A stretch of 64,000 nucleotides of DNA from Alcanivorax sp. (GTDB lineage: Bacteria > Pseudomonadota > Gammaproteobacteria > Pseudomonadales > Alcanivoracaceae), in contig PNLU01000006.1 in NCBI GenBank assembly GCA_013823245.1, positions 1-64,000 on the forward strand, read 5' to 3'. The notes under the pieces were generated by a model. It saw only the letters and a list, made by a program, of their open reading frames with translations. It had not been told where the DNA came from and did not search any database. How positions within the stretch are numbered: the stretch's first letter is position 1; every line of letters begins with the position of its first letter. The position numbers and the translations under genes were made by a program. Shown here in pieces: positions 29,093 through 60,012 of the stretch.

Positions 29093-29809
29093 GTGAGTGC
29101 AGACCAGACCCAGGACAAGATTCTCGTTGTTGATGACGATGCCCGGCTTCGCAGCCTGTTGCAGCGTTTCCTTGAAGAACAGGGCTTCCAGATCAAGGCC
29201 GTGGGCGATGCCCAGCAGATGGATCGGGCCCTGAGCCGCGAGATCTACTCCCTGATGGTGCTCGACCTGATGCTGCCCGGCGAAGACGGCCTGTCGATCT
29301 GCCGCCGCCTGCGTGACGCAGGCACCCGCATGCCGATCATCATGTTGACCGCCAAGGGCGACGACAACGAGCGCATTGAGGGGCTGGAAGCCGGCGCCGA
29401 CGATTACCTCCCCAAACCCTTCAATCCGCGCGAGCTGGATGCGCGTATCCGCGCTGTGCTGCGCCGCCAGGTGCGCGAAGTACCGGGCGCCCCCAGCCGC
29501 GACAGCCAGCATGTGGCGTTTGGCCCCTGGGCGCTGGACCTGTCACGCCGCATCCTCAGCCGGGGCGATGAAGAGCACAGCCTGACCACCGGCGAGTTCG
29601 CCGTGCTCAAGGCGCTGGTGCAGCACCCCCGCGAGCCGCTGACCCGCGACAAGCTGATGAGTCTGGCCCGTGGCCGGGAATGGAGTGCCATGGAGCGTTC
29701 CATCGACGTGCAGGTATCGCGCCTGCGGCGGCTGCTGGAAGACGATCCCTCCAAACCCCGATACGTGCAGACCGTCTGGGGTGTCGGTTACGTGTTCGTA
29801 CCTGACTGA
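29093..29809 (+). CDS. ompR: OmpR/AmgR-type response regulator
   Basis: The 238-residue protein has a receiver domain with Asp58 in MVLDLMLPGEDG and a C-terminal winged helix ending RYVQTVWGVGYVFVPD. It is the OmpR orthologue type; in Pseudomonas the gene near tex is amgR. The GTG start at 29093 has CGGAGA upstream and gives the E. coli OmpR length. Its usual partner envZ is not adjacent but lies 3.9 kb downstream on the same strand. Regulon unknown here. Confidence 0.95.
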   Translation: MSADQTQDKILVVDDDARLRSLLQRFLEEQGFQIKAVGDAQQMDRALSREIYSLMVLDLMLPGEDGLSICRRLRDAGTRMPIIMLTAKGDDNERIEGLEAGADDYLPKPFNPRELDARIRAVLRRQVREVPGAPSRDSQHVAFGPWALDLSRRILSRGDEEHSLTTGEFAVLKALVQHPREPLTRDKLMSLARGREWSAMERSIDVQVSRLRRLLEDDPSKPRYVQTVWGVGYVFVPD

Positions 29810-29887
29810 CGCCTTCAGCGGCTTCAGCCGTGACGCGCCGCCCTGCCCGACGGGGAATATCTGTATTTCCTCATTTATCCCCTGTAT

Positions 29888-29909
29888 GGGGGACGTCTTC
29901 ACGTCTCCC
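29888..29909 (+). other. Stable hairpin between ompR and the lipoprotein gene
   Basis: A nine-pair stem, GGGGGACGT / ACGTCTCCC with one G-T pair, closes a CTTC loop 78 nt after the ompR stop. No T-tract follows, so it may be a weak terminator or part of the leader of the next gene. Confidence 0.4.
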
Positions 29910-29969
29910 GGACAGCTATCGTCAAGGTATCCCTTGTCTTTGTCGGTCTGTGACCGAAGGAGTACCGCC

Positions 29970-31178
29970 ATGACGGCCCCTTTTTGTTCTCGTCGTACCC
30001 CCCGCTTCTGGCCGCTGGCCTGCGCGGGCTCACTTGCCTTGTTCGCCAGCGCCTGTGGCGGCGGTGGTGGCGGTGGTGGCCCGGGCACCGCCACCGGGCA
30101 GTTCAAGGACAGCAATGTGTCCGGCCTGGAATATGTCTCGGGCAGCCGCTCCGGCACCACCGATGAGCTGGGCTTCTTCACCTACGAGCGCAACAGCCCG
30201 GTGACCTTCTCCGTCGGAGCGGTAACCCTGGGTAGCGCGTCAGGTAATGATCTGGTGACGCCGCTGGATCTGGTAGCAGGCGGCAGCAGTGATCATCAGG
30301 CGGTGGTCAACATCGCCCGCTTCCTGCAGATGCTCGATGAAGACGGTGACCCGGATGAGGGCGGTATCTCCATCAGTGCTGACGTACGGGCGCAGGCCGG
30401 CGATTGGCCGGCGCTGGACTTCGATGTGGATGTGGATGATTTCGGTGATGACGCGGATGTGGCCCATATCGTGACCCAGGTGGGCGGCGTCCTGCCCGCG
30501 CCCGCCGTGGCGCAGGCCCATCTTGAGAAGACACTGCGCTGCGCCTATGCGGGTGCCTTTGTCGGCAACTATCGACAGAACGGCAATGGCAGTGCCCGGG
30601 GGCAATTCGGCCTGCTGGTCAGCGCGCTTACGGGCGATGTTCAGGGCTGGGTCTGGAGTCAGGTGGACGAATTTGGTGATGCGGACGATATCGACGCCAT
30701 CTCCCTCAGCGGCAGCCAGGCGGTCAGCTACGATCAGGATCGGGCCTTTGTCTCGGGCTTCGGTGGCGATGGCAGTAACTTCGAAGGTCGCTTCACCAGC
30801 CCGAACAGTCTCACGGGCACCTACGCGTTCGCCTACGCGCAGGGGGCCAATGGCGGCACCTTCTCCGGCAGCCGTATCGGTGGTTCCGCCAACGCTGTGT
30901 GGCGCTTTACCGGCCTGTACGGTGGCACCACCTACGGCGTCTTCGCATTCGATATCGATGCCAGCGGTAGCGTGATCGGGCGCGCGCACAACATCGAGGA
31001 TGACGAATCCACAGTGCTGGGTGGCAACCTGTCGGGCTCTACACTGACCGTGATGGCCGGCGGTGCGACGATTGCCACCGCCACCCTGAATACCGCCACC
31101 GGCACCCTGACTGGCGGCACGTGGGATGACGGTACTGACTCAGGCACCTTCAATGGTGATGGTTGCCGCCTGAATTGA
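29970..31178 (+). CDS. Large secreted lipoprotein with glycine-rich linker
   Basis: The 402-residue product has a lipoprotein signal ending ASAC, then a run of glycines. The next part (VSGLEYVSGSRSGTTDELGFFTYE) resembles the N-terminal repeat of surface lipoproteins in marine gammaproteobacteria. The C-terminal half is beta-rich, with repeats of the form GTFSG, GTWDDG and GTFNGDG. GAAGGAG precedes the start at 29970. It lies directly after ompR, where envZ would be expected. Function unknown. Confidence 0.75.
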   Translation: MTAPFCSRRTPRFWPLACAGSLALFASACGGGGGGGGPGTATGQFKDSNVSGLEYVSGSRSGTTDELGFFTYERNSPVTFSVGAVTLGSASGNDLVTPLDLVAGGSSDHQAVVNIARFLQMLDEDGDPDEGGISISADVRAQAGDWPALDFDVDVDDFGDDADVAHIVTQVGGVLPAPAVAQAHLEKTLRCAYAGAFVGNYRQNGNGSARGQFGLLVSALTGDVQGWVWSQVDEFGDADDIDAISLSGSQAVSYDQDRAFVSGFGGDGSNFEGRFTSPNSLTGTYAFAYAQGANGGTFSGSRIGGSANAVWRFTGLYGGTTYGVFAFDIDASGSVIGRAHNIEDDESTVLGGNLSGSTLTVMAGGATIATATLNTATGTLTGGTWDDGTDSGTFNGDGCRLN

Positions 31179-31191
31179 TGCGAAGGTCTCC

Positions 31192-31217
31192 TTAATGATG
31201 TATAAATGAGCCATTAA
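31192..31217 (+). promoter_or_regulatory. Inverted repeat TTAATG...CATTAA with TATAAA, upstream of the HipB-like gene
   Basis: TTAATG at 31192 and CATTAA at 31212 form an inverted repeat around a TATAAA -10-like hexamer at 31201. This is a plausible autoregulatory operator for the XRE protein that starts at 31247. Confidence 0.4.
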
Positions 31218-31246
31218 ATGAATCTGTGGCTTACAAAGGTATCGTT

Positions 31247-31582
31247 ATGGGAGGCCCGTATCGTCCTGCTCCTGCCGCCCGTCGTGCCCTGCGCAAGCTG
31301 GGCGAGGACATCCGTGAGGCGCGTTTGCGCCGCAATCTGCCCATGGAAGTGGTCGCGGAGCGGGCTTCTACATCCCGTAGCACGCTGGCCCGCGTGGAAA
31401 AAGGCGATCCCGGGGTCGGGTTGGGGGTTTTGGCGGGTGTCTTGCAGGCTCTGGGTTTGCTGGGGAGATTGGCTGATCTGGCCGACAGCGCCCTTGATGC
31501 AGAAGGGCTGGAGATCAATCGGCAGACGCTGAGGCAGCGTGCTTCAACACCGCGCAGGTCGCGTAACTCCGACGCGCATTGA
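31247..31582 (+). CDS. HipB-like XRE-family regulator without HipA
   Basis: The 111-residue helix-turn-helix protein has the segments GEDIREARLRR, MEVVAERASTSRSTLARVEKGDPGVGLGVLAGVLQALGL. This pattern is typical of HipB-type antitoxins that sit upstream of hipA kinases. Here the next gene on the strand is not hipA, so it appears to be an orphan or a new pairing. I chose the ATG at 31247 (AAAGG upstream); a GTG at 31226 is possible. Confidence 0.75.
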   Translation: MGGPYRPAPAARRALRKLGEDIREARLRRNLPMEVVAERASTSRSTLARVEKGDPGVGLGVLAGVLQALGLLGRLADLADSALDAEGLEINRQTLRQRASTPRRSRNSDAH

Positions 31583-31644
31583 TCGCTCGACGTGCGCAGG
31601 GCTATTGATCAGAGCATTGAGAGGCCGACAATGGTCTGCTGCGT

Positions 31645-32079
31645 TTACTCTCCTTCGTCTCCCTGCATGCGATTGAGCAGGCGCATGTGCTCCAAAGCAA
31701 GTGTCTTGTGCTCCGGACTGAGCCTCTGGAAATACCTCAATAATGCCAGTGTTTCAGGGGTGAGAGCGGGTACGGGCTGGGCTGCTTCTTCTTCATGCCA
31801 ATGAATATCTTGCGGTTCTGGCCTTCTGCAGAAATCTGGGCTGATGATTTCCTCCGCTGATGAGTTGATCGGCCCAGCCTGCTCTGTCATGACGTAGAGT
31901 TGGCTTGCGGAGGTGCCTAGGGCCAGCGCCAGGCGTTTGAGCAGGTTTTGCGTCGGCTGTCGTTGCCCATTCTCGATGCGTGACACATTGCTGGTGGCCA
32001 CTTGGGCCTCCAGGGCCAGCTGCTCCTGAGTCAGGCCGCGTTGTATGCGCAGTAGTCGTATGGCTTGCCCAATATGCAT
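31645..32079 (-). CDS. XRE-family transcriptional regulator
   Basis: The 144-residue protein has an N-terminal HTH (IRLLRIQRGLTQEQLALEAQVATSNVSRIENGQR) and a C-terminal part of about 80 residues without a recognised fold. It is divergent from four small genes at 32214-33603. Two TTGCC-N5-GGCAA palindromes lie in the shared promoter, one just upstream of its start and one near the operon start. A repressor of that operon and of itself is the simplest reading. Base composition is lower in GC than its neighbours. Confidence 0.8.
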   Translation of the reverse strand: MHIGQAIRLLRIQRGLTQEQLALEAQVATSNVSRIENGQRQPTQNLLKRLALALGTSASQLYVMTEQAGPINSSAEEIISPDFCRRPEPQDIHWHEEEAAQPVPALTPETLALLRYFQRLSPEHKTLALEHMRLLNRMQGDEGE

Positions 32080-32100
32080 CCGTACATTCTTCGGCTGGCA

Positions 32101-32115
32101 TTGCCTATAAGGCAA
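32101..32115. promoter_or_regulatory. Palindromic operator 1 (XRE side)
   Basis: TTGCCTATAAGGCAA is a 15-bp perfect TTGCC-N5-GGCAA palindrome 22 nt upstream of the XRE start. Its half-sites are identical to those of operator 2, 45 bp away. Binding by the adjacent XRE protein is inferred. Confidence 0.7.
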
Positions 32116-32134
32116 AACCAGGAAGGCATATTTG

Positions 32135-32163
32135 TTGACAGTTTATTGCCTCTAGGGCAATTT
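32135..32163 (+). promoter_or_regulatory. Candidate promoter of the four-gene lipoprotein operon
   Basis: TTGACA at 32135 is a perfect -35. A weak -10 around 32158-32163 (CAATTT) follows a 17-bp spacer. Operator 2 occupies the spacer and the first bases of the -10, which fits repression by occlusion. Confidence 0.45.
32146..32160. promoter_or_regulatory. Palindromic operator 2 (operon side)
   Basis: TTGCCTCTAGGGCAA has the same TTGCC and GGCAA half-sites as operator 1. It begins five bases after a consensus TTGACA -35. Confidence 0.7.
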
Positions 32164-32213
32164 ACGATTGATCAATGTGAGATGCATCACGGCAGATATG
32201 GGGGATCGAGAAG

Positions 32214-32618
32214 ATGGGAAAGAGGGTGCTGGAATACGCAGGACGTGTGGTGACTGGGATGCGGCGTATCGTGTTGCTGTCCGGGCTATTGGTTCTTGTC
32301 GGATGTTCGGCTTTCAGGCCGCACAGCCAGACTGTGAATGTTGTGTGCGATCCACCCGATTCAGTGCTGGTGGTCAATGGTCAGCGTTACACCAGTCCCG
32401 CGCAGGTGTCCGCCAAGCGTAATCGGGATGTATCCATCCAATGCCACAAGGCGGGTTATCACCCTGCTCAACGCACAATCGGCCACCATTTCAACGGGAC
32501 TGGTGCTCTGGATGCGGCGGGGACTTTCCTGCTCCTGCTGCCGGGTATTGGTTTGTTTACGCCCGGCGCCTGGTCATTGGATCAGGAAGATGTGCATCTT
32601 CAGCTATACCCGCAATAA
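32214..32618 (+). CDS. PEGA-like lipoprotein
   Basis: The 134-residue product has a lipoprotein signal ending LVGC after VLLSGLL, with a long basic n-region. The mature part contains VNVVCDPPDSVLVVNGQRY and a segment that fits a PEGA domain, a short surface-associated beta-sandwich. A hydrophobic GTFLLLLPGIGLF stretch is near the C-terminus. GGGGGAT lies seven bases before the chosen start; the ATG at 32259 is an alternative. It is the first of four genes downstream of the XRE operators. Confidence 0.65.
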   Translation: MGKRVLEYAGRVVTGMRRIVLLSGLLVLVGCSAFRPHSQTVNVVCDPPDSVLVVNGQRYTSPAQVSAKRNRDVSIQCHKAGYHPAQRTIGHHFNGTGALDAAGTFLLLLPGIGLFTPGAWSLDQEDVHLQLYPQ

Positions 32619-32635
32619 ATATATCGGGAGGTGTT

Positions 32636-32917
32636 ATGAGGTGTTTAGTGTGCTGCACCCTGGCTGGGATTGTTCTGCTGTCGGGCTGTACGACCACTAC
32701 GGGGGCCGGCGTTCAACGTATTGGTGAAAACAGGTACATGGTTTCGGCAATAGCACGGTCTTTCAATAGTGAAGCTGTGAATAGAAGAACGGCCCTTCGC
32801 CAGAGAGCAATCTTGGAAGCAGAGAGCTTCTGCGAGCAGCAGGGCAGGCAGGTGAGACTGCTTGAGCAAGAACTCAGTAATAATCAAGTGAGCGTATACT
32901 TCACATGTCAGGGGTAG
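32636..32917 (+). CDS. Small lipoprotein of unknown function
   Basis: The 93-residue product has a signal peptide ending LLSGC, then a small domain with AVNRRTALRQRAILEAESFCEQQG. Two further cysteines are in the mature part. GGGAGG lies four bases before the ATG. The 18-nt gap from the previous gene supports an operon. No family recognised. Confidence 0.65.
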   Translation: MRCLVCCTLAGIVLLSGCTTTTGAGVQRIGENRYMVSAIARSFNSEAVNRRTALRQRAILEAESFCEQQGRQVRLLEQELSNNQVSVYFTCQG

Positions 32918-32920
32918 GTT

Positions 32921-33208
32921 ATGGATGATAAGAAGCAACTGACTGATATCTGGAATGGCAAGAAAATGGATTACTGGCTCACTGACGAACGGGGGGAGAA
33001 GACATCGTTACGCATGGAAAAATGGGCCGCAGATATCCTGCATAAAGAGCTGCAGGATGTGCAATCCTGGCTTCAGGATATTTATTCGCGCGTGGCGGAA
33101 AAATACCCGGAGCTGTCGCGTAGGGCAAAAGGTAATCATGTGCGGCACGCGGCTGAAACTGAAGCTAGAAAAAGCCGCCTCTATGTTTCAGTAACGGATT
33201 TCCTTTAA
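32921..33208 (+). CDS. Small cytosolic protein of unknown function
   Basis: The 95-residue product has no signal peptide or membrane segment and is predicted mostly helical and charged (EKWAADILHKELQDVQSWL, then VAEKYPELSRRAKGNHVR). It starts 3 nt after the preceding stop, so it is part of the operon. It may be a small regulator or partner of the flanking lipoproteins; I do not assign a family. Confidence 0.6.
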   Translation: MDDKKQLTDIWNGKKMDYWLTDERGEKTSLRMEKWAADILHKELQDVQSWLQDIYSRVAEKYPELSRRAKGNHVRHAAETEARKSRLYVSVTDFL

Positions 33209-33234
33209 TGCACATCAATTAGGGTTGGGAATTC

Positions 33235-33603
33235 ATGAGTGAGGTGAAAGGGGTGGCAGGAAGGAGGCGAAGGGGTTCGGTTATTGTTGTCTTGGTTGTT
33301 GCGATGGCGGGCTGTGCTAGCCAGGCGGCTCGATTGAACGGGCAGATGGAGTTTTGCCGAGAGGCCGCTGATCTCGGGCGTAACATTATGTATGCCAGGC
33401 AGCAATCAGGGGTTGGTCCGGATGTCCTTTTGGAGCATTTGTTGAAGAAGGTTGGCGGTGACATGGAGATGGTGCCCGTCATTATTGAGGCATTTGTGGA
33501 GGAGGCCTACCAATGGCCGGAAGTTCAGGGCTTAGAAGCCAGGAATGATGTGGCAGATGAGTTCTCCAGAACTTTCTACGGCAACTGTATTAATGACGGT
33601 TAG
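33235..33603 (+). CDS. Lipoprotein of unknown function
   Basis: The 122-residue product has a basic N-terminus (GRRRRGS), a hydrophobic stretch and the lipobox VAMAGC. The mature part is mainly helical. AGGG lies upstream of the start and the gap from the preceding gene is 26 nt. It is the last gene before envZ. No family recognised. Confidence 0.6.
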   Translation: MSEVKGVAGRRRRGSVIVVLVVAMAGCASQAARLNGQMEFCREAADLGRNIMYARQQSGVGPDVLLEHLLKKVGGDMEMVPVIIEAFVEEAYQWPEVQGLEARNDVADEFSRTFYGNCINDG

Positions 33604-33741
33604 GAGGAGGCCGAAAACGGTCTTTATGGGCAAATCTATCCCTCGCCGGGGATATGGCGTGGCGCTCAAGGCGTGATAATCTGGCAGGCCTCTGCGTCCT
33701 GACAGGGACGCCCGATTCTGCCATGCCAGCCAGGAATCCTG

Positions 33742-35064
33742 ATGCGCCTGCGTCTGTTACCCCGCACTGCCTTTGCCCGTTCCGCCATGGTGGTGGGGCT
33801 GGTGATTTTCCTGACTCAGGTGCTGACAATCTGGTTTTTTGCACGTAATGCCTATTTGCCGGGGATTCGCGAGTACTCGCGTCTGACCGTCTTGCAGGCG
33901 GAATTGTCGTTCCACGACGAAACCCATGATCCGGAAGGCGCGCGGCGTCTGGGGGAGACCACCGGTATCATCGTTGCCGATCCGCCGGATGCCCGGGAAG
34001 GGCGGGTGCCCTGGATCACGCGCCCTGTGGTGGGCAGTTTCCGCAACGAGATACAGCGCGAGCTGGAAGAAACCGTGTTCGTACGCTTCGAGGACTCCCG
34101 GCGCCCGGTGATCTGGGTGACGGCGGCCTCGTTCAACGGCAAGTGGTTGCGGGTGCCGATGACCTTTTTCCGCGATTACGACCGCTACCTGCTGGTGGGT
34201 TGGGGTGTGACCGTGCCGCTGTTTGCCATTATTGCCGGGTTGCTGATTGCCCGGGGGCTGAACCGGCCCCTGAAACGCCTGGAGCAGGTGGCGCTGGTGG
34301 TCGGGCGCGGCGATCCGGTGCCACCCCTGGACGATGATGTGGGGCCGAAGGAAATCGACGCGGTAAACCGGGCGTTCAACCGGATGACCCGGGAGCTGGC
34401 CCAGGCTCAGCGGGATCGAGCCTTGCTGCTGGCGGGGGTGTCGCATGACCTGCGCACGCCGCTGACGCGCATGCGGCTGTCGGCGGAGTTCATCCCGGAT
34501 GCCGAACTGTCGTCGGGCATCATCAGTGATATCGAAGACATGGACGCCATTCTGGAACAGTTCATCGGCTTTATCCGCGACGGTGCGGACGAAGTGGCCA
34601 GTTACGAAAACCTGAACGTACTGGTGGAGGATGTATGCAGCAAGTTCACGGAGCTGACGCTGCATCTGTCATTGGGCGACGTGCCGCGCCTGATGATCAA
34701 ACGGCTGACCTTCAAGCGCCTGCTTACCAACCTGATCAGTAACGCCGTCAAGTATGGCGAGCCACCGGTGGATATCGAGACCCGCGTGGAGGGTGAAGAA
34801 GTGGTGCTGCGGGTGCGCGATCACGGTCAGGGCGTGCGTAATGAGGATATTCCCACCCTGTTGCAGCCGTTCTCGCGGGGCGAAAAGGCCCGTACGGTGA
34901 CCGGCTCCGGTCTGGGGCTGGCGATCGTCAAGCGGATCGTGGATATGCACCATGGCCGTATTCATCTGGGCAACCATGATGAAGGCGGACTGGCGGTGGA
35001 AATTCGCCTGCCGGTCACGGGGCGCTTTGTGCAGCCCGAGGCGCTGTCTGCCCGGGTGCGCTGA
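33742..35064 (+). CDS. envZ: EnvZ/AmgS-type osmosensory histidine kinase
   Basis: The 440-residue protein has an N-terminal transmembrane segment (residues about 15-36), a periplasmic domain, a second transmembrane segment near residue 150-170 and a HAMP domain. The HisKA box [14 protein letters not shown] carries His235. The N, G1 and G2 boxes ([29 protein letters not shown]) follow. It is the cognate type for ompR at 29093. AGGA precedes the start. Separation from ompR is unusual. Confidence 0.95.
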
Positions 35065-35161: not shown

Positions 35162-35590
35162 TTACAGCATGCCCTCGACACGCTGACGCAGTTCATCGTC
35201 GTACGGCAGCATCTGGGCGATGCGGTTGTAAGTGCCTACATCAAGGCCCTCATCCTGAACCGCCTGCACCATTTCCTGCTGCATGTTCATCTGCACCTCT
35301 GCGACCTTTTCCGGGTCGTCCGCAGCCTGGGCTTCGCTGACATACTTCTCGCGAATTTCCTCAACCTGCTTGTGCGCAGACGCGAATTTCTCAAGCTCGT
35401 CATCGCTCACTTCCGTGGCGGCGGCATCCGGCGCGAAGCCCTGGCCTTGCTGACCCTGCTGAGCCTGCGCGGCAGGATTGTGCTGCTGGCCGCCGTCAGA
35501 ATAGGTACCCGCAGCGCCCTGGGCGAAGGCGGCACCCGTCAGACCGGTGGCGGCGATGGCGATGGCAAGTTGCTTCAGTCGGATTTGCAT
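35162..35590 (-). CDS. DUF4168 periplasmic protein
   Basis: The 142-residue product has a signal peptide (LAIAIAATGLTGAAFA) and a Gln/Ala-rich linker. A helical C-terminal DUF4168 domain follows (VSDDELEKFASAHKQVEEI, then YNRIAQMLPYDDELRQRVEGML). Family function is unknown. It has its own terminator and is separated from ndh by about 160 nt. Confidence 0.85.
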   Translation of the reverse strand: MQIRLKQLAIAIAATGLTGAAFAQGAAGTYSDGGQQHNPAAQAQQGQQGQGFAPDAAATEVSDDELEKFASAHKQVEEIREKYVSEAQAADDPEKVAEVQMNMQQEMVQAVQDEGLDVGTYNRIAQMLPYDDELRQRVEGML

Positions 35591-55088: not shown

Positions 55089-55118
55089 ATTCAACTGATT
55101 TTCGGGAGTGAAGTTGCC

Positions 55119-56039
55119 ATGTCGATGGCTGATCGTGACGGTTTTATCTGGCTTGACGGCGAACTGGTACCCTGGCGCGATGCCCGGGTGCATGTGCTGA
55201 CCCACACCCTGCACTACGGCATGGGCGTGTTCGAGGGTGTGCGCGCCTATGAAACCGCACGGGGCCCGGCGATCTTCCGTCTGCAAGAGCATACCGATCG
55301 GCTGTTCCGTTCGGCGCATATCCTGCAAATGAAAATCCCGTTCACGAAAGAGCAGGTCAATGCCGCCCAGATCGAAGCGGTGCGCGCCAACGGCCTGCCG
55401 CATGCCTACCTGCGCCCGATGGCCTTCTACGGCAGCGAGGGCATGGGCCTGCGCGCCGCCAACCTGAAAGTGCACCTGATGGTGGCCGGCTGGGAATGGC
55501 CTGCCTACATGTCACCCGACGCGCTGCAAGTCGGGATCAAGGTGCGCACCAGCTCCTACACGCGCCACCACGTCAACATCACCATGTGCAAGGCCAAGGC
55601 CAACGGCAACTACATGAACTCCATGCTGGCGCTGAACGAAGCGCTGTCCGGCGGTGCCGATGAAGCGCTGTTGCTGGATAACGAAGGTTATGTGGCCGAA
55701 GGCAGCGGCGAGAACATCTTCCTGGTACGTGACGGGGTGCTGTACACCCCGGAGTTGACCTCCTGTCTGGACGGCATTACTCGCCGTACCATCTTCACGC
55801 TGGCGGCAGACTGTGGTTATGAGGTGCGTGAGAAGCGCATTACCCGCGATGAGGTGTATGTGGCGGACGAAGCCTTCTTCACCGGCACGGCCGCAGAAGT
55901 CACGCCCATCCGCGAACTGGACGGGCGTATGATTGGCGAAGGGCGGCGTGGGCCGATCACTGAGCAGTTGCAGGCGCTGTATTTCGATACGGTGCAGGGC
56001 AAGGCTGAGCAGTACGGTGACTGGTTGACGTACGTCTGA
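55119..56039 (+). CDS. ilvE: Branched-chain amino acid aminotransferase
   Basis: The 306-residue PLP enzyme performs the last step of valine, leucine and isoleucine synthesis. It opens FIWLDGELVPWRDARVHVLTHTLHYGMGVFEG. The PLP lysine is in CKAKANGNYMNSMLAL near residue 160. The EGSGENIFLVRDG motif follows. GGGAG precedes the start. The glnE-ilvE order followed by LPS genes is the same as in Pseudomonas. Confidence 0.98.
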   Translation: MSMADRDGFIWLDGELVPWRDARVHVLTHTLHYGMGVFEGVRAYETARGPAIFRLQEHTDRLFRSAHILQMKIPFTKEQVNAAQIEAVRANGLPHAYLRPMAFYGSEGMGLRAANLKVHLMVAGWEWPAYMSPDALQVGIKVRTSSYTRHHVNITMCKAKANGNYMNSMLALNEALSGGADEALLLDNEGYVAEGSGENIFLVRDGVLYTPELTSCLDGITRRTIFTLAADCGYEVREKRITRDEVYVADEAFFTGTAAEVTPIRELDGRMIGEGRRGPITEQLQALYFDTVQGKAEQYGDWLTYV

Positions 56040-56116
56040 TTTTTAATGATACAACGAAGGTCAAGAGCTATGGTTGCGCCAAGTGTTCTGCGGCAAGTTC
56101 GACTTCGGAGGGCGCT

Positions 56117-57058
56117 ATGAACGTAGTTCACGTGCTTAAGAAGCGGATGCCGCCCGACGGAAGCAACGGGGGGCTCCCTGTTCTTGTTGATGAATTGGCG
56201 GAGGCCCAGGTTAAGCTTGGTCACGATGTTGTTGTGCTTACAACCGAGTTGGTCCCGTCGTTTCGACAGCATTGCGGATATAAGCTCCAGATGTTTTCAG
56301 GCTGTGATTGTCCGCAGGACGTCCTGTTATGGGGCGACATATTTCATCTCCATGGTGACTTCGGATCATTTTGCGAGATACTAAGGCTAAATAAAAAGCC
56401 ATTTGTCAGAACTATCCATGGGGTAGGAGGTAAGTCTGGTCCTCACGATATATATGTCTCAAGAAGTCATGCTGAAGCGCATGGCTCGCAGCGATATGTA
56501 TATAATGGCGTCAACATAGAAAAGTACTCCATATCCGAGGGAAAAGGTGATTTTGCACTTTTTCTGGGACAGGTGTCGCGTTCAAAGAAAGGTGTGGGTG
56601 ATGCGATTCGCGCTGCGCGTATCGCTGGTACTGAGATTGTGGTCGCCGGAGGGAGAAATAACCGATGGCCATCGACATGGTTCTCATGGCCTTTTTCAGG
56701 TGTTTCTCCTGTTGGAGTTGTTCGAGGAGACATGAAGGTGTCCCTGCTCTCGCGCGCTCGATGTGTGCTATTCCCCTCGAAGTGGCCAGAGCCATTTGGT
56801 TTGGTTTTGGTGGAGGCGATGGCCAGCGGTACCCCTGTTTTGGCGTATGATTGTGGCGCTGCCCGAGAAATCATTCTTGACGGGTATACAGGCTTTATTT
56901 GTAGGGATTATCGTGACATGAGTGCTCGCATTAATGATTGTGACGAGTTGTCTCCGGAAAAATGTCGCTGGCATGTTGAGCAAAATTTTACATCCTTTCG
57001 GATGGCTGAGGACTACAATAATTTTTACTTGAAGAGTGTCAATGAAGCCTTTTCTTGA
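56117..57058 (+). CDS. Glycosyltransferase family 4
   Basis: The 313-residue protein has a GT-B fold with an N-terminal GGLPVLVDELAEAQVKLGHDVVVLT and the GT4 donor-site motif EPFGLVLVEAMASGTPVLAYDCGAAREII, with the conserved EX7E pair. It probably adds a sugar to LPS core or another glycan. GGAGGG lies four bases before the start. It is visibly AT-richer than the flanking genes, which suggests transfer. Donor and acceptor unknown. Confidence 0.88.
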   Translation: MNVVHVLKKRMPPDGSNGGLPVLVDELAEAQVKLGHDVVVLTTELVPSFRQHCGYKLQMFSGCDCPQDVLLWGDIFHLHGDFGSFCEILRLNKKPFVRTIHGVGGKSGPHDIYVSRSHAEAHGSQRYVYNGVNIEKYSISEGKGDFALFLGQVSRSKKGVGDAIRAARIAGTEIVVAGGRNNRWPSTWFSWPFSGVSPVGVVRGDMKVSLLSRARCVLFPSKWPEPFGLVLVEAMASGTPVLAYDCGAAREIILDGYTGFICRDYRDMSARINDCDELSPEKCRWHVEQNFTSFRMAEDYNNFYLKSVNEAFS

Positions 57059-57155
57059 ATTTTAGATATATTTTTTTGTGGCCTTTGGAAATTTATGGTG
57101 CGGGTTGATGTGCTTCTATCGCGGTATAATTTAAACGGGTAAAAAAAGGACTTTT

Positions 57156-58106
57156 ATGAGTGATTTAGTTCACATTGCTCTCTGTTGTGATGCCAAGTAT
57201 CTACCGTATGCAGCTACCACTATAGCCTCATGTATAGATAGCTGTGCTGAGCCGGAATGGCTCCATTTCCATCTTGTTGCGCTTGATATTGGAAACGATG
57301 CTTTGGATAAGCTGAGAGTTTTCGTTGAGCAGAAGGGGTGCAAGATAGATTTTCATTGTCCTGGCCACGACATCTATGCTGATTTCCATACCCAGCGTTA
57401 TGGTTTGGCTGTTTACCACAGAATAAGTTTGCCCGTTTATTTGCGTGGTCGTGCTGAGTGGGTTATTTATTTGGATTCCGATGTTCTGGTTGTGGACGAT
57501 ATACGTAAACTTTGGGCCGAGAAAGATATAGATTCTGATATGATCACCGGTGCTGTTATTGATTACTCTCCTGCCACTGAGCGGCATGTCAAAATACCGA
57601 GAGAAAAATATTTTAACTCTGGTGTTCTTCTTATAAATATTCGAAAATGGCTGGATTATAAGATACATGAAAAAACAATCGATTATCTGAATTCAAACCA
57701 TAGAGCATTGACCTTTGTTGATCAATGCAGTCTCAATGTGGTCCATGATGGCTGTTGGCGGCGCCTTTCTCCCAGATGGAATATACAGGGGAATGTTTAC
57801 TCTTTTTGGCGCAGGGAGAGAAGTGGTCCAGCAATAACAGAAGTTGAGATAAAAGACGCAATATCTAACCCTGGGATTGTGCACTTCATTGCCTCTAAGA
57901 AGCCTTGGAAAATAAGGTGTTATCACCCTTACGAGTTTGCTTACAGAAAAACCCTCAAGTCAACACCTTTTTATGAGGGTGCTCTTCCCTCACTGGCTGA
58001 TGATATTTTCCGGGGATGGGTTACAAAGCCTTTCAGAAGATTGGGGCAGATGCTGAGGATGGTATACGTATACCTCCTCGGCAGAAGATGGAGGCGAGAT
58101 GTTTGA
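57156..58106 (+). CDS. Glycosyltransferase family 8
   Basis: The 316-residue protein has the GT8 pattern: HIALCCDAKYLPYAATTI near the start, the metal DxD motif YLDSDVLVVDD, then FNSGVLLINIRKW and a C-terminal HFIASKKPWK. This family includes LPS galactosyl- and glucosyltransferases (LgtC, WaaI, WaaJ types). A weak AAGGA ribosome site precedes the start. It is AT-rich like its upstream neighbour. Its stop overlaps the next gene. Confidence 0.9.
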   Translation: MSDLVHIALCCDAKYLPYAATTIASCIDSCAEPEWLHFHLVALDIGNDALDKLRVFVEQKGCKIDFHCPGHDIYADFHTQRYGLAVYHRISLPVYLRGRAEWVIYLDSDVLVVDDIRKLWAEKDIDSDMITGAVIDYSPATERHVKIPREKYFNSGVLLINIRKWLDYKIHEKTIDYLNSNHRALTFVDQCSLNVVHDGCWRRLSPRWNIQGNVYSFWRRERSGPAITEVEIKDAISNPGIVHFIASKKPWKIRCYHPYEFAYRKTLKSTPFYEGALPSLADDIFRGWVTKPFRRLGQMLRMVYVYLLGRRWRRDV

Positions 58107-58936
58107 CAAAAACAGGTGGTGTAGTGATTGAGGATGGGCGTGATAAGAATACGCTTTCGGTTTGCATCATCACAATGAATGAAGCGGACCGATTGAGGGC
58201 GTGCCTGGAGTCGGTAAAAGATCTTGCCGATGAAATCATCGTTTTCGATAGCGGCAGCTCGGACGGCACGGTGGAGTTGGCGCGCGAGTACACCGATAAA
58301 GTCCAGGTGACTGATTGGCCGGGCTTCGGCATCCAGAAACAGCGCGCGCTGGATGAGGCCCGCATGGACTGGGTGTTATCTATTGACGCAGATGAGGCGC
58401 TGGATGAGCAGGCCCAGCAGGCGCTGAAGGACTTGCTGGCGCAGGACCATATTGAAGAAGTCGCGTTCCGCATCCAGTGGGCAGTGATTCGCCATGGCAA
58501 GCGACTCAAACATGGTCGCAGTGCGCGCGCTCCGCTGCGGCTGTATCGCCGTGAAGGTGCGCGCTTTACTCCTGTCGCTGTGCACGAGACGATTGAGCAC
58601 CCGCCCGGCAAGGTGGGGCGTCTACCTGGCTATCTGCTTCATTACACTGCCCGTGATTACGGGCATGCGCTGGCCAAGAATGCGAAGTATGCCTGGCTGG
58701 GTAGTCAGAAGTACTTCGACAAGGGAAAACGTAACCGAAGCTTGCTGGTGGTGTGCCTGCGGGCACTGTGGACTTTCTTCCAGATATATATTTTGCGAGG
58801 CGGCTTTCTGGATGGCCGAATTGGCTTTATCGTAGCCATGAACTACATGCAAGGTAACTTCAACAAGCATGCAGGATTATGGATTCTCACACAGGAAGAA
58901 AAAGCCAGAAAGAAGAACGGAACAGCAGACCAGTGA
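58103..58936 (+). CDS. Glycosyltransferase family 2, WaaE-like LPS core transferase
   Basis: The 277-residue GT2 has LSVCIITMNEADRLRACLESVKDLADEIIVFDSGSSDGT, then DADEALDEQA and the RLYRREGARFTPVAVHETIEH segment of WaaE/KdtX-type transferases. I chose the TTG at 58103 because GGAGG lies eight bases upstream and it overlaps the GT8 stop (TTGA), implying coupling; ATG codons at 58016 and 58088 are in frame but poorly placed. It is GC-rich again after two AT-rich genes. Its 3' end is 2 nt from the convergent gene. Confidence 0.9.
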   Translation: MTKTGGVVIEDGRDKNTLSVCIITMNEADRLRACLESVKDLADEIIVFDSGSSDGTVELAREYTDKVQVTDWPGFGIQKQRALDEARMDWVLSIDADEALDEQAQQALKDLLAQDHIEEVAFRIQWAVIRHGKRLKHGRSARAPLRLYRREGARFTPVAVHETIEHPPGKVGRLPGYLLHYTARDYGHALAKNAKYAWLGSQKYFDKGKRNRSLLVVCLRALWTFFQIYILRGGFLDGRIGFIVAMNYMQGNFNKHAGLWILTQEEKARKKNGTADQ

Positions 58937-58938
58937 GT

Positions 58939-60012
58939 TCAGGGTTTCCAGTAACCCAGCTTCTTTCTTTCCTTCAGATTTCGTATCAGATTTAGTGGCT
59001 TTCTGCGCGGCGGCGGATTGTTCATGGCGCTATCTACGGCTTCCAGCACTCGCTGGCTGGCGCGTCCATCGTTCCGCGGGTGGAGTTGGCTCACGTACTC
59101 GTTGATGGCGCTCAGCAAGGGTTCGGGATGTGTCAGCGCCGTCTCGATAGCGCTCGCCAGGTGATCCGGATCTGTCACGTTCAACAGGTGATCCCGCGAT
59201 CCCTGGCTCTGATTGCGGAAGGTGACAACAGGTTTGCGCTGTACCAGAAACATCAGCATGACCGATGACGTATCGCACACCATCACGTCTGCACGACGTA
59301 GTAGTGGCAGTACGTTGTCGGTCTTGATGTAAGCCAGATTATCATCTGCCAGTGCCTTGTAGGCCTCAACCATGGCCGGGTCCATCTTCGGATGGAACTG
59401 CACCAGCCACTGCCATTGTCCGGTATCGCGCAGTACGCGCACGGCATCCAGCAGATGCGGTGCGCAGCTCAGGCTACGGGTAAAGGTGGAGCACAGCAAG
59501 ACCGTCGGGCGACCGTCAGGCGCAGGCAGCAGGGTTCGATCCGCATGAGTGTCCGCTTCCGGAGCAAACAGAGGATCCAGGGCCGGCCAGCCCGTCTCGG
59601 CGACCTGGAAGTAGCCGTATCGGGCGGCGCGTTCCTCGAAGCCCCGGGTGGTATTCGGCCCCTGGGTGCAATACAGATCGAAGCAGCCGCGAATGTTGAA
59701 GTGCCCCCGGTCATCACTGCGGGTCGCCTTGGCGACGTTGAAGCCGTGGAACACAGCGACCTTCAGCCCGGGGATAAAGCCGGGCACCATGTTGCCCGGG
59801 GCCAGCACGGCCTCGGGCGCCCAGGCGCGCACGGCGTCGATGTCGGTCAGTCTGTGTTCATCCGGTTGCAACCAGCTCGCATCGATCTCATCGCCCGCCA
59901 GGAACCAGCGGGCCTCGCCGCCGCGGGAGCGGATGGCGGTCTGCAGCGGCCGCAGAATCGCGTAGGCGTAGTTCTGCTCGGCGTACAGGAGAAAGCGCTG
60001 GGCCTCGGGCAT
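58939..60012 (-). CDS. CDP-glycerol glycerophosphotransferase-like protein
   Basis: The 357-residue protein has the GT-B-type features of the CDP-glycerol:polyglycerophosphate transferase family: KVAVFHGFNVAK, the HPKMD segment, then DTSSVMLMFLVQRKPVV in the donor-binding part. In Gram-positives such enzymes build teichoic acid; here it sits in an LPS-core cluster, so a phosphoglycerol or similar core substituent is plausible. I chose the ATG at 60012; the frame stays open upstream without conservation. It is divergent from the next GT4. Confidence 0.75.
   Translation of the reverse strand: MPEAQRFLLYAEQNYAYAILRPLQTAIRSRGGEARWFLAGDEIDASWLQPDEHRLTDIDAVRAWAPEAVLAPGNMVPGFIPGLKVAVFHGFNVAKATRSDDRGHFNIRGCFDLYCTQGPNTTRGFEERAARYGYFQVAETGWPALDPLFAPEADTHADRTLLPAPDGRPTVLLCSTFTRSLSCAPHLLDAVRVLRDTGQWQWLVQFHPKMDPAMVEAYKALADDNLAYIKTDNVLPLLRRADVMVCDTSSVMLMFLVQRKPVVTFRNQSQGSRDHLLNVTDPDHLASAIETALTHPEPLLSAINEYVSQLHPRNDGRASQRVLEAVDSAMNNPPPRRKPLNLIRNLKERKKLGYWKP

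Follow-up and report, generated by a model that had tools for sequence, protein, structure and literature searches.

Phage immunity regions consist of a CI-type repressor, divergent promoters, and palindromic operators. CapH-type XRE proteins are regulators of defence operons and are accompanied by a partner protease. Small lipoproteins with an excluding function have also been described. Llp, a small T5 lipoprotein with a disulphide, acts from the periplasmic side to close its receptor (PMC9586334); in Streptococcus phages, superinfection exclusion is the function of the lipoprotein Ltp (PMC3952083). Here, we describe a locus in a stretch of 64,000 nucleotides from Alcanivorax sp. (assembly GCA_013823245.1, contig PNLU01000006.1, positions 1 to 64,000; hereafter "the window") in which the gene for an XRE regulator is divergent from a tight plus-strand run of four small genes, L1, L2, C95, and L3. 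With middling confidence, we interpret the locus as a cassette that was acquired horizontally and lies between ompR and envZ, a site that varies; in this cassette, a phage-type autorepressor would act on an operon for envelope lipoproteins. The best reading of its make-up is a one-off assembly of rare gene families that occur separately, and not a conserved new system.

The initial annotation had proposed that an XRE gene stands opposite a tight run of four genes, and this layout holds: the open reading frames (ORFs) are present, the regulator matches the Pfam helix-turn-helix (HTH) domain HTH_3 (E = 3.5e-15, scanned from the second residue on), and the gaps within the run are 17 bp (L1–L2), 3 bp (L2–C95), and 26 bp (C95–L3). 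Lipobox-type motifs agree with the three lipoproteins that had been proposed (L1, L2, and L3), and C95, described as lacking a signal, shows no signal peptide by eye. The shared promoter region contains, as claimed, two perfect TTGCC-N5-GGCAA palindromes, the candidate operators O1 and O2, with a start-to-start distance of 45 bp and one of them just upstream of the regulator start. The expected number of such sites in the window is 0.19, two or more sites occurred in 2 of 100 shuffles, and the whole assembly of 3,186,863 bases holds seven, two of which are O1 and O2. The second palindrome had been placed between a TTGACA −35 element and its −10; the TTGACA was found where expected, but a good −10 at normal spacing was not. 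Every hexamer 16–18 bp downstream has at most two of six matches to TATAAT, the best candidate (TACGAT, four of six matches) lies 22 bp away, and the promoter scan listed no site at the TTGACA.

The composition of the cassette is foreign to its surroundings. Segment 31583–33741 has a guanine-plus-cytosine (GC) fraction of 0.534, as compared with a mean of 0.626 (SD, 0.038) for 576 equal-sized steps of the remaining window, in line with the lower GC noted at the outset. Of the 576 steps, 25 are as low in GC as the cassette, and those shown lie at about 55.1–59.7 kb. At third codon positions, the five cassette genes have a GC of 0.52–0.61 versus 0.77–0.82 for tex, ompR, envZ, and ndh; intermediate values (0.65–0.73) were obtained for a large ORF to the left, the hipB relic discussed later, and an ORF at 35162. 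The family-wide search covered L3 and XRE and returned the cassette's own genome only, for L3 among 46 genomes and for XRE (E up to 1e-12) among 45. At the same threshold, XRE was found in one of 274 genomes of a class sample; the class samples used here include the own genome. A second low-GC stretch is present at 55100–59700 of the window; the lowest equal-sized step outside the cassette has a GC of 0.455, and the low-GC steps in this stretch cover ORFs that by eye resemble glycosyltransferases.

The position of the cassette was assessed by comparison with relatives. envZ was matched in 45 of 45 genomes searched; 30 loci were returned, one being the window's own, and 15 matches came without a locus, so that 29 relatives were compared. 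In 25 of the 29, ompR is directly upstream of envZ, with gaps of up to about 0.3 kb (69 bp in the closest relative, G033), as compared with an ompR–envZ distance of 3.9 kb in the window. The remaining four, all from the same genus, carry additional genes over 1.8 to 9 kb between ompR and envZ: hipB–hipA in G037 (HipA_C, 1e-43); in G032, a set for resistance–nodulation–division efflux; in G036, several genes that include one for an HTH protein and one for a histidine kinase; and in G035, by eye and among the ORFs listed, similar ones. The cassette is absent from this site in the relatives compared.

Within the window, the gene order is ompR, the large lipoprotein-like ORF, the hipB region, the cassette, and envZ. 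Positions 31165–31554 share 79% identity with the hipB region in G037; the hipB-like gene is 89% identical to its counterpart there, where hipA lies between it and envZ. A tblastn search of the window recovered nothing recognizable as a hipA remnant, the best match having E = 2.0. Because the hipB region is shared with G037 and a trace of hipA is absent, the cassette appears to occupy the place that hipA has in G037, in a site that varies within the genus. The hipB-like gene itself apparently belongs to an older hipBA site and stands apart from the cassette.

The ompR–envZ junction (window 29810–33741; loci L035–L038) resembles an insertion site in the genus, with other genes present in four of six congeneric relatives and in the window, whereas each of the 23 relatives outside the genus for which a locus was returned has ompR and envZ adjacent. 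The large lipoprotein-like ORF (29970–31178), inserted after ompR, has a lipobox followed by a glycine run and gave no Pfam match at E up to 1. In G035 and G036, other ORFs with a lipobox and CGGD occur at the ompR–envZ site. The features of the cassette and its neighbors are collected in Table 1.

Table 1. Positions in the window of the cassette genes, candidate regulatory elements, and flanking genes
Feature	Position	Strand	Remarks
ompR	29093..29809	+	Approximate start (frame open from 28925); 422.8 bits to the NCBIfam OmpR equivalog (cut-off 331)
Orphan hipB-like XRE gene, left neighbor of the cassette	31247..31582	+	Start approximate; apparent relic of a hipBA pair
XRE regulator	31645..32079	−	144 aa; ATG at 32079; HTH at the N terminus
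Candidate operator O1, TTGCCTATAAGGCAA	32101..32115		Upstream of the XRE ATG, nearest base 22 bp off
TTGACA, possible −35 of the lipoprotein operon	32135..32140	+	Hexamer; without a good −10 at standard spacing
Candidate operator O2, TTGCCTCTAGGGCAA	32146..32160		5 bp downstream of TTGACA
L1, putative lipoprotein	32214..32618	+	134 aa; lipobox LVGC
L2, putative lipoprotein	32636..32917	+	93 aa; lipobox LSGC; predicted beta-beta-alpha-beta-beta domain
C95	32921..33208	+	ORF, 95 aa; signal peptide absent by eye
L3, putative lipoprotein	33235..33603	+	122 aa; lipobox MAGC; family phrog_2315; helical
Hairpin after L3, possible weak terminator	33606..33625	+	8-bp stem, AAAA loop, tail not T-rich
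envZ, right neighbor	33742..35064	+	EnvZ is the top NCBIfam model, with 351.7 bits (cut-off, 415, not reached); synteny

The regulator had been likened to a phage repressor. Viral contigs were scanned for two TTGCC-N5-GGCAA palindromes 15–45 bp apart. The scan matched 48 viral stretches (loci L084–L131) containing 55 twin sites, overlapping ones counted. For 16 of the 55, an HTH domain starts no more than 300 bp away, as compared with 5.2% of bases; the corresponding binomial P of about 1e-8 is an overstatement, because some sites overlap, two contig pieces repeat, and both features favor intergenic gaps. Several viral twin sites separate a pair of divergent HTH genes, the layout of an immunity region, and the HTH protein beside the twin site in L093 is 54% identical to the XRE of the window over 48 residues. 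This enrichment lends indirect support to the proposed repressor switch with operators in the shared promoter, and we read XRE as a phage-type repressor on such indirect grounds. The viral twin sites are also a candidate operator class for pairing with repressor recognition helices.

Comparison of XRE with other models gave matches of several kinds. The PADLOC capH regulator model matches residues 3–135 (E = 5.5e-10), and further HTH-bearing models of PADLOC 2023 matched as well: HTH_VI (2.6e-17), RmrA, Control_protein, and PDC-M69A (0.0025). Among sequences of solved structures, XRE matched one chain, 8tac, with the molecule name DBP48. Of the three roles suggested initially, defence and envelope modification are both conceivable (the capH match being noted here), and no finding points to toxin delivery.

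The initial annotation had further suggested that the four genes form an undescribed system, to be recognized by their co-occurrence in other genomes. Relatives of L1, L3, C95, and, weakly, L2 do occur elsewhere. In the class samples, the L3 family phrog_2315 was present in 8 of 274 genomes and L1 in 6 of 274, with only one strong L1 match (55%) besides the own genome. L2 (E up to 0.01) was found in 7 of 369 genomes, two with stops inside the frame. For C95 (E up to 0.05), 6 of 369 genomes matched, a single one strongly (E = 2e-8). A C95 profile returned only the own genome among 150 genomes of the phylum; an L2 profile, used on 151 genomes, returned the own genome, G169 (part of the profile), and G185 at 8e-9. 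Searches with the five cassette proteins covered 37 loci, representing 29 distinct places, where one of the five has a relative or weakly matches, own loci excluded. Flanks in these loci were 1.5–6 kb where contigs allow and 1.5 kb in many, so that a distant partner could escape. At none of the 29 places were two cassette genes side by side, and none of the 37 loci contains a TTGCC-N5-GGCAA site. The second matches that did appear were all of chance quality: L033 gave L3 (0.23 and 0.96), L083 an HTH piece of 31 residues (0.094), and L079 a weak C95 match (E = 0.009 here, 0.005 in another search). The match in L079, about 3 kb from an L2 relative, lies inside an ORF that is ParE-like by eye and was set aside.

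Searches of mobile elements gave a similar picture of scarcity. The viral contigs contained no relative of L1, L2, C95, or L3, and none was retrieved with the L1 and C95 profiles; 50,697 phage records, searched with L1, L2, and L3, gave no match. Plasmids contained no relative of C95 or L3, and the three plasmid records matched by L2 (E = 0.01–0.07) are too weak for use. No description of the cassette was found in the literature, in a search limited in library and terms.

The initial observation is, on these data, mostly right and not due to chance, whereas its interpretation as an undescribed four-gene system is not supported: the relatives were found separately and the palindromes were lacking beside them, outcomes that the initial annotation had named as refuting such a unit. 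A related explanation is that the cassette belongs to a rare but conserved multigene envelope or defence system whose other members are unsampled. The close packing of the genes, with a regulator and palindromes of their own, would fit such a system, as would the capH match and the lack of a Pfam, NCBIfam, or PADLOC assignment for all four proteins; the failure of a second gene to appear beside any relative in the 37 loci compared, with extra matches at chance level only, makes it distinctly unlikely. The opposite explanation, a chance gathering of four unrelated passenger ORFs without joint function behind a standalone XRE autoregulator, we regard as possible but rather doubtful. It would account for the separate occurrence of each family and for the spread in GC among L1, L2, C95, and L3 (0.479 to 0.565), but not readily for gaps of 3–26 bp, four frames that are all open, and an O2 placed at the run's TTGACA.

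Pfam, NCBIfam, and PADLOC give no function for any of L1, L2, C95, and L3, and PADLOC 2023 gave no family for them at E up to 1. L1 had been called PEGA-like; this resemblance is by eye, and the Pfam PEGA profile matched neither L1 nor three of its relatives at E up to 1. The L1 relatives are 49–58% identical and come from two metagenome-assembled genomes and two plasmids of Nitrosospira sp. NRS527, on one of which the gene adjoins an integrase gene. Among genome contigs, 37 stretches matched a pattern and two encode a relative, both of these being the metagenome-assembled genomes; one of the two coincides in position with the match in G066 from the class sample. In an alignment of five sequences, C45 and C77 of L1 are invariant besides the lipobox cysteine, and a C-terminal stretch, PGIGLFT-x-GAW, is conserved. 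For C95, there is one clear relative, in G278 (E = 2e-8), with which it has an LSRR-x-KG stretch in common. At L078:4642–5568, this relative adjoins a parD–parE pair. A toxin–antitoxin reading of the cassette was considered and rejected: Pfam, NCBIfam, and PADLOC gave no toxin match for L1, L2, C95, or L3, and the only further PHROGs match of L3, to a toxin-subunit family, is at chance level (E = 0.18) and over the signal peptide.

In L2, two cysteines are invariant besides that of the lipobox (alignment of three sequences). The AlphaFold2 model of L2 shows two strands, a helix, and two strands, with a mean pLDDT of 75.9 and about 90 over the helix and the last two strands. When 995 chains were aligned to this model, the best rows included 3qkb (DUF74; Z = 6.7, 1.8 Å over 61 residues) and FvfA, 5evg (Z = 6.3, 2.4 Å over 65 residues). 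The five best rows have Z values of 5.8–6.7, about one unit above the rest; all are below 8, a range that may reflect no more than a general arrangement in common. The Foldseek E value is no better than 0.068, and the identity to the DUF74 and FvfA folds is 10–11%. Against a viral fold library, the best E value was 0.023, the top rows being unnamed or uncharacterized, with a phage "Lipoprotein" at 0.12. Sequences of solved structures gave nothing usable for L1 or L2. Residues 17–120 of L3 match positions 5–105 of the 109 in the phrog_2315 profile (E = 1.3e-10), which places L3 in this family; C41, Q56, A91, Y92, and C118 are the only invariant residues in five aligned members. L3 is predicted to be helical (mean pLDDT, 78.0), and no fold is clearly matched by its model (Foldseek E of 1.9 and Z of 5.4 at best).

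These properties bear on a further explanation, in which the locus as such is a superinfection-exclusion cassette whose Llp- or Cor-like lipoproteins bind outer-membrane receptors from the periplasm and shut out phages. The phage-type regulator with its palindromes, the small size of the lipoproteins, and the two further invariant cysteines in each of L1, L2, and L3, which recall the disulphide of Llp, are consistent with this explanation. A Cor profile also gave weak matches to L2 (E = 0.047), to three L1 relatives (0.003, 0.036, and 0.052, over about the first 50–65 residues), and to one L2 relative (0.13). However, these matches do not reach beyond the signal peptide and the beginning of the mature protein, the L1 of the window gave none, and the absence of relatives from the phage records and viral contigs also counts against it. 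In our view, such a dedicated exclusion cassette is unlikely.

We favor the acquired cassette under a phage-type repressor, which could operate as follows. The cassette would stand in the place of hipA between ompR and envZ. XRE would bind both TTGCC-N5-GGCAA operators as a dimer of the phage-repressor type; at O1, ahead of its own gene, this would result in autorepression, and at O2, just downstream of TTGACA, in repression of L1–L2–C95–L3, which we infer to be made as a single transcript. Upon release of the repressor, three lipidated, envelope-anchored lipoproteins and one cytosolic protein would be produced. As for the biological role, our guess is that the lipoproteins and C95 alter the envelope, most likely in favor of the resident mobile element, for example, by barring competing phages. 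Given the precedents of Llp and Ltp, the guess that comes most naturally for lipoproteins controlled by such a repressor is exclusion, which would, tentatively, be the likeliest role.

Several observations weigh against the favored reading. As to the surroundings, the neighbors identified are ompR, envZ, and the hipB relic, the other ORFs of the window being listed by their first 60 residues; no integrase or transposase is among the neighbors named, and attachment-like repeats were not found at the cassette borders, where a repeat search gave scattered imperfect pairs. Pfam gives only HTH models for XRE and no S24 peptidase domain, the gene opposite XRE encodes L1 and not a Cro-type HTH protein, and no relatives of XRE were found in phages or plasmids at 1e-10. 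Of the viral twin sites, 39 of 55 have no HTH domain within 300 bp, and some are inside long ORFs; 39 of 55 have a spacing of 31–36 bp, and only one has the 45 bp seen here. Two terminator-like sites on the plus strand lie within the gene run (32322–32336 and 33064–33079), although the total of four in the terminator scan is within chance expectation (mean, 2.3). The Cor similarity of L2 is restricted to residues 1–38 of 93. Finally, no sign of a common history is seen for the four genes, and one joint role is thus not implied.

Because the insertion splits ompR from envZ and the operon runs in the direction of envZ, envZ could come under the cassette promoter. The cassette would then capture an osmosensing kinase: release of XRE would yield a shield of the three lipoproteins in the envelope, and read-through from the repressor-controlled promoter would raise EnvZ and reset the levels of porins and, with them, of phage receptors; we consider this highly improbable. 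The promoter scan gave no site between L3 and envZ and one weak site inside L3 (33458–33485) that could serve envZ, and a TGATAAT near 33674 is, by eye, a possible extended −10 before envZ. The segment containing the hairpin after L3 (33600–33650) has a folding energy of −12.6 kcal/mol, and this hairpin is absent from the listing of the terminator scan. Rfam and transfer RNA scans of the window gave no matches.

If the regulation is as proposed for the acquired cassette, a phage-style repressor and its operators have been re-used for an envelope-protein operon outside a recognizable prophage, and the insertion has separated the ompR–envZ pair. Should a phage-exclusion phenotype be found, it would give a function to three small lipoprotein families.

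The locus was also set beside known systems. A hipB-like gene is located left of the cassette, where G037 has hipB–hipA, but the window has no hipA, and the XRE of the cassette is a different, divergent gene. For L2, the model can be aligned to DUF74 and FvfA folds, at 10–11% identity and at Foldseek E and Z values that may reflect a shared arrangement only. L3 resembles phrog_2315, a viral family of unknown function, over most of its length; unlike the family, it bears a lipobox, and few residues are invariant among the aligned members. CapH-type regulators are matched by XRE, but no other defence-gene match is present in the cassette and a partner protease was not seen. L1, L2, and L3 are like the Cor and Llp exclusion lipoproteins in being small, in bearing a lipobox by motif, and in having two further cysteines each; they differ in that the profile similarity is limited to the signal peptide and mature start and in that the cassette encodes three different lipoproteins plus a cytosolic protein. 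In comparison with phage immunity regions, the regulator has 144 residues with no S24 domain detected (a domain found in many, not all, such repressors), the opposite operon begins with a lipoprotein gene in place of cro, and the operator spacing is wider than in most viral twin sites. By sequence, however, an HTH regulator divergent from an operon, with two palindromes in the shared promoter, is what the cassette has in common with these regions, and the same twin site is also found beside HTH genes in viral contigs.

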